This document shows, piece by piece, positions 9,325 to 12,398 of a DNA stretch of 12,561 nucleotides. The position numbers and the translations under genes were made by a program. This DNA is from Candidatus Zhuqueibacterota bacterium (GTDB lineage: Bacteria; SM23-31), in NCBI GenBank assembly GCA_022562855.1, contig JADFON010000026.1:1-12561 (forward strand), written 5' to 3'. Numbering within the stretch: the stretch's first letter is position 1; every line of letters starts with the position of its first letter. Under the pieces are notes generated by a model that was not told the origin of the DNA, ran no database searches, and saw nothing but the letters and a program-made list of their open reading frames with translations.

Positions 9325-9588
9325 ATGTTCAATTTAAATAAAACAAAATTAATTATTCCTGTTCTCTTGATCGTTCTGATAATCGGGATACAAAATAAAT
9401 CGCGGGAAAGGATCGACAAGACCGACAGTCCCGAATTTGAATTATACTTTACTGCAAACCCACAATATCTGAAGTTTATGTCCGCTGGATTTGATGGTAC
9501 AATCGCCGATTATTACTGGATTAAAGCAGTCCTCTATTTTGGAAGAATGGTAACCGGAGACGATTTAGAAATGTTTTTCAACTTCTAG
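9325..9588 (+). CDS. N-terminal fragment of a membrane-anchored protein, cut at the compositional join
   Basis: An 87-residue reading frame with an N-terminal signal anchor (KLIIPVLLIVLIIGIQ, residues 7-22) and then MSAGFDGTIADYYWIKAVLYFGRM. That segment resembles the start of longer, often TPR-containing, membrane proteins found beside ABC-2 exporter genes, in which '..DYyWik...YfG' is followed by a conserved stretch on the far side of the membrane and by TPR-like repeats. Here the protein stops at TAG 9586-9588, exactly where base composition changes, and none of the expected remainder is found downstream in any frame. The last codons (EMFFNF) still look like chromosomal sequence. It is therefore a gene broken by insertion, rearrangement or mis-assembly, and probably not functional. 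The family link is from memory and moderate in confidence. Confidence 0.7.
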   Translation: MFNLNKTKLIIPVLLIVLIIGIQNKSRERIDKTDSPEFELYFTANPQYLKFMSAGFDGTIADYYWIKAVLYFGRMVTGDDLEMFFNF

Positions 9589-9600
9589 GACTCCTGAAAA
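9583..9600. other. compositional join between AT-rich chromosome and GC-rich accessory DNA
   Basis: To the left, AT-rich codons of a truncated gene run up to about 9585. To the right, the small proline-rich gene starts at 9600 in clearly GC-richer sequence. The joint may be the left edge of an inserted island or a chimeric assembly point. No transposase, integrase or terminal repeat is visible, and the matching right edge is not in the window. Confidence 0.6.
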
Positions 9601-9740
9601 TGGCCAATGAAAACAAACCAGATAAGCCGGACCGTCCGGACCGACCTGACGTACCTCCGGGCCCACCAAGCGAGACTCCAGGGCTCCCAGACGGCCCGCC
9701 TCGTCCGAGCATACCGCCTGGTCACCGCCCGGTAGGCTAA
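9600..9740 (+). CDS. 46-residue proline-rich peptide ending in Val-Gly; candidate modifier/substrate of the E2-E1/JAB system
   Basis: This short gene begins with ATG behind a plausible ribosome binding site (AGGAC at 9587-9591, 8 bases upstream) and ends TAA, four bases before the E2-E1 gene. About a third of the residues are proline (16 of 46), placed every third residue over residues 7-22 (KPDKPDRPDRPDVPPGPP) and again, in a shifted register, over 27-39. It is hydrophilic, with no cysteine and no membrane helix, so it is probably disordered or a polyproline-II rod. The C-terminus is PPGHRPVG. In bacterial E1/E2/JAB operons the first gene usually encodes the protein whose C-terminus is adenylated and conjugated (a ubiquitin-like protein or the CD-NTase). 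Position and terminal glycine suggest the same job here. It is far too short for a beta-grasp fold. I do not recognise a named family; function is inference. Confidence 0.68.
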   Translation: MANENKPDKPDRPDRPDVPPGPPSETPGLPDGPPRPSIPPGHRPVG

Positions 9741-9744
9741 GCCT

Positions 9745-11562
9745 TTGGCACCGCGGTCGAAGGCGTCGCGCAGGGCTCCACGCGATACGAGTTGGTGGAG
9801 TGTCTGGCCCGTTCTGTACAAACAAGAGCTCAACGCCTTTGACCAGAGGGGCATTTCTTACCGGATCAGGCTAAAAAAGAAGGGCCTTCTCGCCCTTGAG
9901 GTAGACTGGCCGGTCAAGGGGCGCGAATCGTTGCGCCTCCATGTTAGTTTTTCACCGTTGCACCCATTTTTTCGACCTGCTGTAGCGGCACCACAAGAAA
10001 CATTTGAACGGCACCAAAATCCATTTAATAGGGATTTGTGTTTGATCACCCAGGAGACACACCAATGGGACTCAGGGAAACTAATCGCGGATTTCATTGA
10101 CGAACGCTTACAACAGTTCCTAAGCGCTCTTGAGGCACGGCGCGAGAAGCGATGGGAAGATGCGGCGGAGTTGGAGGAGCAAGCTGCCGATCCTTTAATG
10201 CCTTACTTCACACATGCGGCTGAAGACAACTCGATCATTCTATTCGACGGTAGGATGCCCATACCACACGCAGACCATGGTCTCATGGACCTCGTTCTGT
10301 GGACCCGCCCATTCAATCACGGCCAATCTATCGAGGTGGTGCTACGGCAGTTAAAGAGGGCCGATGGCAGCGTGATCGGCCAAACATTCATTCCGCTCGG
10401 GAATCCGCCAGAAGAGCGCCAGATTCCCGGACGCTGGGTCCGTTTGAGCCGACCGCCAATTGCGGATAACCCGACGGCACTCATGCTCTCGGTCACAGAA
10501 GAGTTGGAGAGGCGGGAGGTTCTGCGGCCGAAGGACATCTGCAAACTTAACCAGATTGCCGAAGAAGCCTTTTCGATTACGGGCATCATCTTTCCAGAGG
10601 AAGTGGAATACAGTCACGGCAAAATCGGCGCTGGCTGGCTGTTTCTTGTCAGCCGCCGAGAATTCATAGAAGGGGCGCCCGGGTCGCCGCAGATCAGTTT
10701 GGTTCGTGGGGAGCGCGCCAGCGACCGGGATATTTTTGCTCGTCTCCCAGTAGCCAGCGCTCTGGAAGCGAAGAAAGTGCTTCTCACCGGTTGTGGCGCA
10801 ATCGGAAGTTTTGCAGCCGTCGAGTTAGCTCGCGCTGGCGTCGGGAATCTTGCTTTACTCGATTCCGACGTGGTCCAACCCGGTAACGGCCTACGATGGC
10901 CACTGGGACGTAGAGCCTGGGGCGTCAAGAAATCGGTAGCCCTCAAGTATTTCATTGATCAGAATTATCCTCGGACGAAGGTGGATGCTCTTCACGGCCG
11001 TCTTGGTAGCGGAATGACACATGACACAGCGCTTCCGGCAGAAGTTGAAAGTAACCCCACTCAACTCGCCCAAATTCTGGGCCTAATCCAGGATGCCGAT
11101 CTCGTAATCGATGCATCCGCGTCAACCGAAGTGCAACACGCTATAAATTTCTACTGCCGTGATCTCGGAAAGCCCTTGGTAATGGGATATGCAACCGAGG
11201 GTCTTGCAGGAGGTGTCGTAGCCCGCTTCAGGTCCCGTTCCGACGCGTGCTGGGTGTGTCTAAACGAACACTGGAACGACGAGGATGGGCCGCTCCCCAA
11301 ATTGCGTATTGATAAGACTGGCGTGGTTACGCCGATCGGCTGCAACCAACCCACCTTCACCGGCGGAAGCTTTGACCTCCAAGAAGTGTCGCTTGAAATT
11401 GTGCGGAGTGCTATCGGCCTACTCGCCGATGGCGCCTATGACCCCGGTAGCTGGTCGGTAGCCATTCTTGAGCTTCGGGATGATCGCGGGCACCGCATTC
11501 TCCCGACTTGGACCAACCATAATCCTCCACCTCATCCCAACTGCCGCTGTAGCAACAAGTGA
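9745..11562 (+). CDS. E2-E1 fusion, ubiquitin-like conjugating enzyme (Cap2-like)
   Basis: A 605-residue fusion. Residues ~25-130 are an E2-like domain: HQN at 90-92 stands where E2 enzymes have HPN, and Cys99 in FNRDLCLI is the expected catalytic cysteine, followed by Trp108 as in the usual CL..........W pattern. Residues ~160-320 match the linker region of Cap2-type proteins in size. Residues ~340-605 are a ThiF/E1 adenylation domain: nucleotide loop LTGCGAIGS (347-355), DSDVVQPGNGLRW (373-385) with Asp, Asn and Arg of the ATP site, and VIDASAS (454-460). Cys533 in PIGCNQPTFTGGSFD is the likely E1 catalytic cysteine. Cys502/Cys505 (CWVC) and Cys600/Cys602 (CRC) probably bind zinc. Size and order match CBASS Cap2, which ligates a protein C-terminus to targets. 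The TTG at 9745 is the only start after an in-frame stop at 9733-9735; the ribosome binding site is weak (GTAGG). Confidence 0.9.
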   Translation: MAPRSKASRRAPRDTSWWSVWPVLYKQELNAFDQRGISYRIRLKKKGLLALEVDWPVKGRESLRLHVSFSPLHPFFRPAVAAPQETFERHQNPFNRDLCLITQETHQWDSGKLIADFIDERLQQFLSALEARREKRWEDAAELEEQAADPLMPYFTHAAEDNSIILFDGRMPIPHADHGLMDLVLWTRPFNHGQSIEVVLRQLKRADGSVIGQTFIPLGNPPEERQIPGRWVRLSRPPIADNPTALMLSVTEELERREVLRPKDICKLNQIAEEAFSITGIIFPEEVEYSHGKIGAGWLFLVSRREFIEGAPGSPQISLVRGERASDRDIFARLPVASALEAKKVLLTGCGAIGSFAAVELARAGVGNLALLDSDVVQPGNGLRWPLGRRAWGVKKSVALKYFIDQNYPRTKVDALHGRLGSGMTHDTALPAEVESNPTQLAQILGLIQDADLVIDASASTEVQHAINFYCRDLGKPLVMGYATEGLAGGVVARFRSRSDACWVCLNEHWNDEDGPLPKLRIDKTGVVTPIGCNQPTFTGGSFDLQEVSLEIVRSAIGLLADGAYDPGSWSVAILELRDDRGHRILPTWTNHNPPPHPNCRCSNK

Positions 11563-12053
11563 CAGTCTGGTTAGCTAATACGGCGTTTCGCGCGATGTGC
11601 GAGGAGGGAGCCGCCCTTCATCCACTTGAAAGCGGCGGCATTGTCCTTGGCTGGCGCGCCAGCAATGACACTGTAGTAATTGATGTTCGCGGGCCGGGTC
11701 CGCAAGCCTTACACGGCCGCTACCGTTTCCTACCCGACCATCGGTGGCAAGTTGCTGAGATTCATCGACTCTTCGAGGAGACTTGCGGTGATATTGACTA
11801 TCTTGGCGACTGGCACTCGCACCCAGATGGTTCTTCGGCCATAAGTAGCGAGGATCGCGCTACCCTCCGGCGTATTTCCCGCCGTGTACACGAACCACTG
11901 ATGCTCATTATTGCGGATGACGGTAGCCAGGAAAGCTGGATAACGGGCTGCTGGAAAGGACGCCGGCATCGCGGTCTAATCTACCGACGTTTTGAGGTCG
12001 TTATAGAGTCCATCAAATTGTTTGAACCGCCGCCGAACTGGACTATTGAATGA
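11559..12053 (+). CDS. JAMM/JAB-domain isopeptidase (Cap3-like, Mov34/MPN/PAD-1 family)
   Basis: A 164-residue zinc metalloprotease of the JAB family, which cuts isopeptide bonds to remove ubiquitin-like modifiers or mature their C-termini. The full JAMM signature is present: Glu24 in PLESGG, then His86-Ser-His88-Pro, then Ser96 and Asp99 (HSHPDGSSAISSED). Two histidines and the aspartate bind zinc, and the glutamate activates water, so the enzyme should be active. Length and lack of extra domains match CBASS Cap3. The GTG start overlaps the E2-E1 stop by four bases (GTGA), showing translational coupling. It is the last gene of the operon; no effector follows. In CBASS the equivalent enzyme reverses Cap2 conjugation; here the natural substrate would be the product of the E2-E1 enzyme, possibly carrying the 46-residue peptide. 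Confidence 0.93.
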   Translation: MTVWLANTAFRAMCEEGAALHPLESGGIVLGWRASNDTVVIDVRGPGPQALHGRYRFLPDHRWQVAEIHRLFEETCGDIDYLGDWHSHPDGSSAISSEDRATLRRISRRVHEPLMLIIADDGSQESWITGCWKGRRHRGLIYRRFEVVIESIKLFEPPPNWTIE

Positions 12054-12158: not shown

Positions 12159-12398
12159 ATGAAAACCAACGGTGCCTCCGAGGCCAGGACCCATTTCTCC
12201 CGCCTACTGGAGCGGGCCGCGAATGGCGAACAGGTCGTGATCACAAGGCACGGCACGCCGATGGCGCGCCTCGTGCCCTTCGCCAAACCCGACGGCGCGC
12301 GGACGCGGCGCGCGATCTCCCGTCTCAAGACCTCCCGCAAGGGACGCCGCCTGGATGGCCTCTCCTGGAAAGAGCTGCGCGATAACGGGCGCTGCTGA
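12159..12398 (+). CDS. Phd/YefM-type antitoxin without an adjacent toxin
   Basis: A 79-residue protein of the Phd/YefM (type II antitoxin) family. The N-terminal DNA-binding/dimer domain is typical: KTNGASEARTHFSRLLERAA, then GEQVVITRHGTPMARLVPF. The C-terminal half is basic and then ends in the short LDGLSWKELRDNGRC tail, which resembles the toxin-binding tail of antitoxins paired with VapC/PIN toxins. Such antitoxins normally overlap or abut their toxin gene, but no PIN, Doc or RelE-like frame follows within the 163 bases left. I chose the ATG at 12159 because GGGGA lies 5 bases before it and the protein then begins where the family does; TTG 12138 and ATG 12147 are in-frame alternatives. 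This stretch is even more GC-rich than the preceding operon. Confidence 0.85.
   Translation: MKTNGASEARTHFSRLLERAANGEQVVITRHGTPMARLVPFAKPDGARTRRAISRLKTSRKGRRLDGLSWKELRDNGRC

Follow-up and report, generated by a model that had tools for sequence, protein, structure and literature searches.

A short proline-rich peptide as the predicted modifier of a bacterial E2-E1/JAB operon

Results

The stretch of DNA analyzed here (the window, 12,561 nucleotides) carries three tightly packed genes on the forward strand. The first (positions 9600-9740) encodes a proline-rich peptide of 46 amino acids that ends in PPGHRPVG and is the predicted disordered modifier; its C-terminal Val-Gly codons, GTA GGC (9732-9737), mark the predicted activation site. 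The second (9745-11562, TTG start) encodes a Cap2-like E2-E1 fusion of 605 amino acids, in which the codons for the catalytic cysteines Cys99 of the E2 and Cys533 of the E1 lie at 10039-10041 and 11341-11343. The third (11559-12053, GTG start) encodes a JAB/JAMM metalloprotease of 164 amino acids, a Cap3-like predicted isopeptidase. The packing described in the original prediction, with a 4-base gap between the peptide and E2-E1 genes and a 4-base overlap between the E2-E1 and JAB genes, agrees with these coordinates. A Phd/YefM-type antitoxin gene (12162-12398) lies 3' of the operon, with no toxin gene before the contig end.

A compositional junction (9574-9599, without strand) separates the operon from a truncated conserved gene on its left. 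The GC content jumps from 0.35 to 0.59 at about 9590, where the operon begins, and GC3 is 0.41 in the left genes, 0.54-0.58 in the operon and 0.84 in the Phd gene. The left gene (9325-9588), which follows an ABC-2 permease, stops at this junction after 87 residues. Its homologues in related genomes are intact, with about 263 residues at L066 and about 243 at L067, and its missing part was found nowhere else in the MAG, which is 80% complete. The region upstream of the operon is likewise lost at the junction. Since a GC jump that cuts the left gene marks the start of the operon, the host of this copy is uncertain: there was either an insertion of the operon or a chimeric assembly, in which the right 3 kb would come from another organism and nothing could be inferred about the host of the left part. 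We give a chimera even odds. It would account for the jump in GC and GC3, the truncated gene, the lack of an E2-E1 operon in 40 sampled relatives, the closest E2-E1s being those of Bradyrhizobium and Mesorhizobium, and the contig end at 12561. However, a genuine insertion would look alike, and peptide operons elsewhere sit on plasmids and beside recombinases. The right part of the window, compared with plasmids at the nucleotide level, gave no match. The choice concerns the placement of this copy and not the mechanism; the operon itself is real either way, given 60 other loci, and the finding of a peptide operon is independent of it.

The E2-E1 protein matches the ThiF family of Pfam (3.4e-21) and the E1-E2 model of PADLOC (1.5e-27), and the third gene product matches Prok-JAB (Pfam, 1.7e-14) as well as Cap3-like models, its match to the NCBIfam Cap3 model (1e-13) being under the cut-off of that model. 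The two cysteines that the original prediction had singled out proved to be invariant among 41 aligned E2-E1s, Cys99 together with His90 of the E2, and Cys533, within an invariant GC..TFTG motif, together with the nucleotide-binding glycines, Asp375, Arg384, Lys396 and Asp456 of the E1. Invariance of Cys99/His90 and Cys533 was seen in two E2-E1 alignments (A2 and A4), and near-invariance in the 41 aligned proteins extends to the zinc-type cysteines 502, 505, 600 and 602. The protease is intact, as had been noticed at first reading, with Glu24, His86, His88, Ser96 and Asp99 invariant in a 29-row JAB alignment, and a JAB frame adjoins the E2-E1 gene in 59 of the 59 loci examined. Plasmid-derived rows were left out of the alignment rebuilt for structure prediction, and the AlphaFold (AF2) model of the window E2-E1 reached a pLDDT of 86.5 and a pTM of 0.79. 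The top Foldseek match of this model is the Enterobacter Cap2 7to3 (E 2e-26, nearly full length), followed by ThiF, UBA5, Atg7, MoeB, MccB and BubCD. In VIA-align, where the coverage is mainly of residues 324-605, the top ranks are taken by MoeB (Z 27.4), ThiF and E1s. By its fold and sequence matches to Cap2 and its invariant cysteines, the second gene encodes the Cap2-type fusion that characterizes type II CBASS; by its Prok-JAB match, its invariant residues and the sub-cut-off NCBIfam match, the third encodes the corresponding Cap3-type protease.

The peptide of the window has no family match in Pfam. A tblastn search of plasmids with the E2-E1 returned 12 records spanning most of the protein, the best from Sinorhizobium fredii NGR234 (47% identical). 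All eight records that were opened have a proline-rich frame just 5' of the E2-E1 gene, ending in RPVG, RQVG or RPVGQQ and annotated in Hymenobacter only. Scanning some 85,000 species genomes yielded 50 E2-E1 relatives and two archaeal matches (L061 and L062), which are E1-only and were set aside. The peptide is present in 47 of the 50 relatives. The remaining three are damaged: at L031 the peptide body continues in frame into a broken gene, and at L035 and L052 the E2 half is missing. The locus L060 was rejected as a peptide-less case, its peptide sitting further upstream. Five further loci came from Hymenobacteraceae, which brings the collection, window included, to 61 loci with 47 distinct short peptides. 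Every locus with an intact E2-E1 start has a proline-rich frame directly upstream that ends in Val-Gly, mostly unannotated. The check proposed in the original prediction, a search 5' of E2-E1 homologues, came out in its favour: proline-rich peptides whose C-terminal glycine is conserved recur there in five phyla.

The 47 distinct peptides are 39-70 residues long, with 37% Pro, 14% Gly and no Cys. Val-Gly ends 47 of 47, an invariance that is partly built in, as the frame search demanded Val-Gly near the end; Arg or Lys stands at position -4 in 45 peptides and Pro at -7 in 40. An independent test of the recurrence of Val-Gly is that every intact locus turned out to have such a frame. Six peptides carry one or two residues beyond it (QG, Q, R, LL, LN and QQ), so that trimming would be needed, and these extensions may be likened to those of pro-ubiquitin. 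In an AF2 model in which the stop codon was read through into the E2-E1, a homologous Mesorhizobium peptide was predicted to be disordered (pLDDT about 40); the tail, whose glycine is not free in this construct, had a pLDDT of about 43 and did not dock. The idea that a tiny disordered peptide belongs to a conjugation system was supported by the genomic test. The same prediction spoke of the peptide as the modified molecule, and modifier is the better term.

The peptides of the Arthrobacter group (L007, L053 and L057) have simple PEHPEHP repeats, which suggests that the body of the peptide can grow as repeats are copied, with the tail remaining unchanged.

A short frame that lies directly 5' of the E2-E1 start, separated from it by a small gap or overlapping it slightly, could also be a leader or spacer, its DNA being kept for the sake of translation coupling or as the Shine-Dalgarno site of the E2-E1 gene; GGTAGG near the end of the frame in the window could be such a ribosome site. 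However, the Val-Gly pair draws on the full set of four Val and four Gly codons across loci. Over the last 27 codons, the Bradyrhizobium/Mesorhizobium group has a pN/pS of 0.077 and the sphingomonad/Sinorhizobium/Brevundimonas group one of 0.127, whereas the shifted frames of the peptide region give values from 3.7 to 11.4. The synonymous codon use and the low pN/pS indicate that amino acids are conserved, not DNA. Judged by these substitution patterns, the peptide is under selection at the protein level, and together with the recurrence of the frame in this position at 61 loci, with its invariant Val-Gly end, they show that it is not a chance ORF. The occurrence of proline-rich bodies across phyla also speaks against a leader, a reading that we rejected on codon use and pN/pS and now regard as highly improbable.

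The nearest E2-E1s without a peptide are CBASS Cap2 enzymes, which have a CD-NTase in the peptide's slot. In type II CBASS, Cap2 joins the C-terminal Gly/Ala of the CD-NTase to targets and Cap3 reverses the reaction (PMC10097602). We opened six peptide-less E2-E1 loci on plasmids and found an annotated nucleotidyltransferase directly upstream in five of them; the sixth has an unnamed upstream gene with a SAVED gene before it. The one nucleotidyltransferase examined is DncV-like (Pfam), and CBASS effectors lie near the E2-E1 in several of the six loci. As nucleotidyltransferase and peptide occupy the same slot, the layout of the peptide operon is that of CBASS with the conjugated molecule exchanged. 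The window contains no CD-NTase gene, the slot being taken by the proline-rich peptide in all intact relatives, which sets the family apart from type II CBASS. Unlike in CBASS, no gene for a cyclic-nucleotide effector was seen next to the operon, be it in the window or at the annotated plasmid loci. At the loci of the peptide family, the E2-E1/JAB pair is not preceded by a CD-NTase or a folded ubiquitin-like gene, the arrangement that the original prediction had named as evidence against it. The shared slot also bears on whether the peptide is conjugated at all. It might instead be a regulator, for instance a pseudo-substrate that blocks the E1 site and gives way to a ubiquitin-like or CD-NTase partner supplied in trans, as disordered proline-rich tails can bind enzymes non-covalently. 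We consider this unlikely: the peptide stands where CBASS has the conjugated CD-NTase, and a free C-terminal glycine, an invariant Val-Gly and C-terminal extensions suit activation, not inhibition.

Two Hymenobacter loci, a partial and informative exception, have a tandem DUF1508 (YegP-like) protein of 160-162 residues in the peptide slot (L038, 5537-6019, and L046, 1602-2090; DUF1508 matches of 1e-18 and 1e-21). These proteins end in PPKDRQVG or PGDRPVG. From their sequences, they represent a natural tail swap, in which the tail of the peptide is kept while the body is replaced. A YegP homologue has been reported after the immune regulators CapK-CapS in 57 cases (PMC13373217). The slot is filled by a disordered peptide or by a DUF1508 protein with the peptide tail, and not by the folded beta-grasp modifier that defines Bil and Bub operons. 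Pupylation is not matched either, as the operon has an E2-E1 instead of a PafA-type ligase and its peptides end in Val-Gly plus at most two extra residues, and not in a C-terminal Gln/Glu.

The regulators CapP and CapH were first described for CBASS. In a survey of neighbours at 30 non-redundant loci, CapP was matched by nine neighbouring proteins and CapH by three, and Gabija, AbiE, DRT-type and type IIG R-M matches were also found. An HExxH peptidase of the M78 kind is encoded upstream of the operon in 10 of the 30 loci. These M78 genes (ImmA/IrrE, CapP-type), found at L013, L025-L028, L033, L038, L049, L050 and L059, are mostly divergent, and some of the peptidases are fused to an HTH domain. 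RES-Xre toxin-antitoxin pairs lie 5' of the operon in NGR234, Sphingobium and others.

In Hymenobacteraceae, 8 of 203 other genomes were positive at the threshold used, one of them with a distant peptide-less operon (L091), and outside this family the frequency is about one in several hundred. No full-length E2-E1 relative was present in viral contigs or phage genomes, which gave two weak E1-only matches. Such a rare and patchy family fits a mobile accessory defence or stress module, which is not proof of phage defence. Two copies per genome were seen in Bradyrhizobium murdochi (L011/L032) and, as two different types, in Ensifer IC4062 (L023/L042), and one Hymenobacteraceae genome has an intact and a frameshifted copy (L090/L092). 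In the tree, the window E2-E1 is placed as sister to those of Bradyrhizobium/Mesorhizobium (support 100/96). Very long branches lead to the CBASS Cap2 rows and to the only Ubl-type row, the deep forks are weak, and three peptide rows of the Arthrobacter group come to lie beside these rows.

Discussion

The results of our study point to a ubiquitin-like conjugation system that would be reversible and would use a short, intrinsically disordered peptide rich in proline as its modifier; we assign this reading a probability of roughly 0.8. We observed the genes with their catalytic residues, an invariant tail, selection, the exchange in the slot and the neighbours, whereas we infer the conjugation chemistry, the targets and the antiphage role. 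The E1 domain would adenylate the C-terminal glycine of the peptide in its (R/K)-x-V-G tail, and the activated peptide would be loaded as a thioester on Cys533, handed to Cys99 of the fused E2 and joined to target proteins through an isopeptide bond. The JAB protease would remove the peptide from its targets, and would also trim the one or two residues past Val-Gly, where present, so that the peptide becomes active. The operon probably serves as an antiphage or stress module that is carried on mobile DNA and inducible by stress (CapH/CapP-type); its putative antiphage role is likely in view of its context, that is, CapP/CapH-type neighbours, defence genes and mobile plasmids.

The fold matches bring in another possibility. 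MccB, an E1-like enzyme that acts on a short peptide, is among them, and in microcin C7 it modifies the heptapeptide MccA. The peptide of the operon might likewise be a RiPP-like precursor, adenylated at its C-terminus by the E1-like domain and matured by the JAB into a small bioactive peptide, and the peptides are indeed short, variable in length and strongly biased in composition. We find this quite improbable. The fused E2 with its invariant Cys and His and the invariant JAB do not suit it, as microcin C systems are not known to have a fused E2 or a JAB. Moreover, the tail residues persist when the body is a DUF1508 protein of about 160 amino acids, and no transport or immunity family is prominent among the best 25 neighbour families listed. 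MccB-MccA resembles the peptide operon in pairing an E1-like enzyme with the C-terminus of a short peptide, but differs in having no E2 and no JAB, and in yielding an antibiotic, not a conjugate.

The predicted conjugation system can be compared with others. It shares with type II CBASS the E2-E1 fusion and JAB in the order modifier, E2-E1, JAB, a best full-length fold match to Cap2 (7to3), CapH/CapP-type regulator genes nearby, and a conjugated molecule (the CD-NTase there, as predicted the peptide here) with a single C-terminal Gly. Unlike in type II CBASS, the slot holds a disordered proline-rich peptide of 39-70 residues ending in Val-Gly in place of a CD-NTase, and no adjoining effector was seen. 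Pup, a small disordered protein joined at its C-terminus, ends in Glu/Gln and is attached by PafA, a glutamine-synthetase-like ligase. The peptide is like Pup in being small, disordered and, as predicted, joined through its C-terminus, but its enzymes are of the E1/E2/JAB kind and its end is Val-Gly. Bil and Bub operons, which use folded beta-grasp modifiers, resemble it in combining ubiquitin-like conjugation, predicted here, with a protease of the JAB or another type. The peptide operon, by contrast, encodes no folded modifier and has E2 and E1 in one chain. Bub has also been linked to CapH/CapP regulators (PMC13373217).

Our literature search, with several central works outside its reach, found no earlier description of such a peptide. 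Iyer et al. (2006) placed the E2-E1/JAB pairs of Rhizobium NGR234a and the actinobacterium 'Asp.' in row 6b of their types 6a-6c (PMC1779556), and this row probably includes the peptide-operon family. In section 14 and the table of that work, row 6b is described with a nucleotidyl transferase and the proline-rich peptide is unmentioned (PMC1779556).

The operon resembles the antiviral Cap2/Cap3 systems, and the proposed tag would be unlike the folded ones known. It is likely to represent a new branch of CapH/CapP-linked bacterial immunity, and one that gene annotation mostly overlooks at the level of the peptides. Ubiquitin-type enzymes are regarded as handling folded beta-grasp modifiers, with the CBASS cyclases as a striking exception. 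A family that retains a short tail alone in five phyla would show that what defines an E1-E2-JAB machinery can be a C-terminal tag instead of a fold. We think it rather probable that the conserved, dedicated peptide modifier is recognised solely through its short (R/K)-x-V-G tail, which could be moved to DUF1508/YegP-like proteins, and that the enzymes would conjugate any carrier of it, forming a tail-defined class without a ubiquitin fold. With three genes in about 2.5 kb, the system is very small and testable.

The distant Hymenobacteraceae operon L091 (197-2289) encodes an E2-E1 and a JAB without a proline-rich peptide. The gene before it encodes a protein of 103 aa that matches DUF2604 weakly (E 0.0085, under the cut-off) and is possibly a folded ubiquitin-like modifier.
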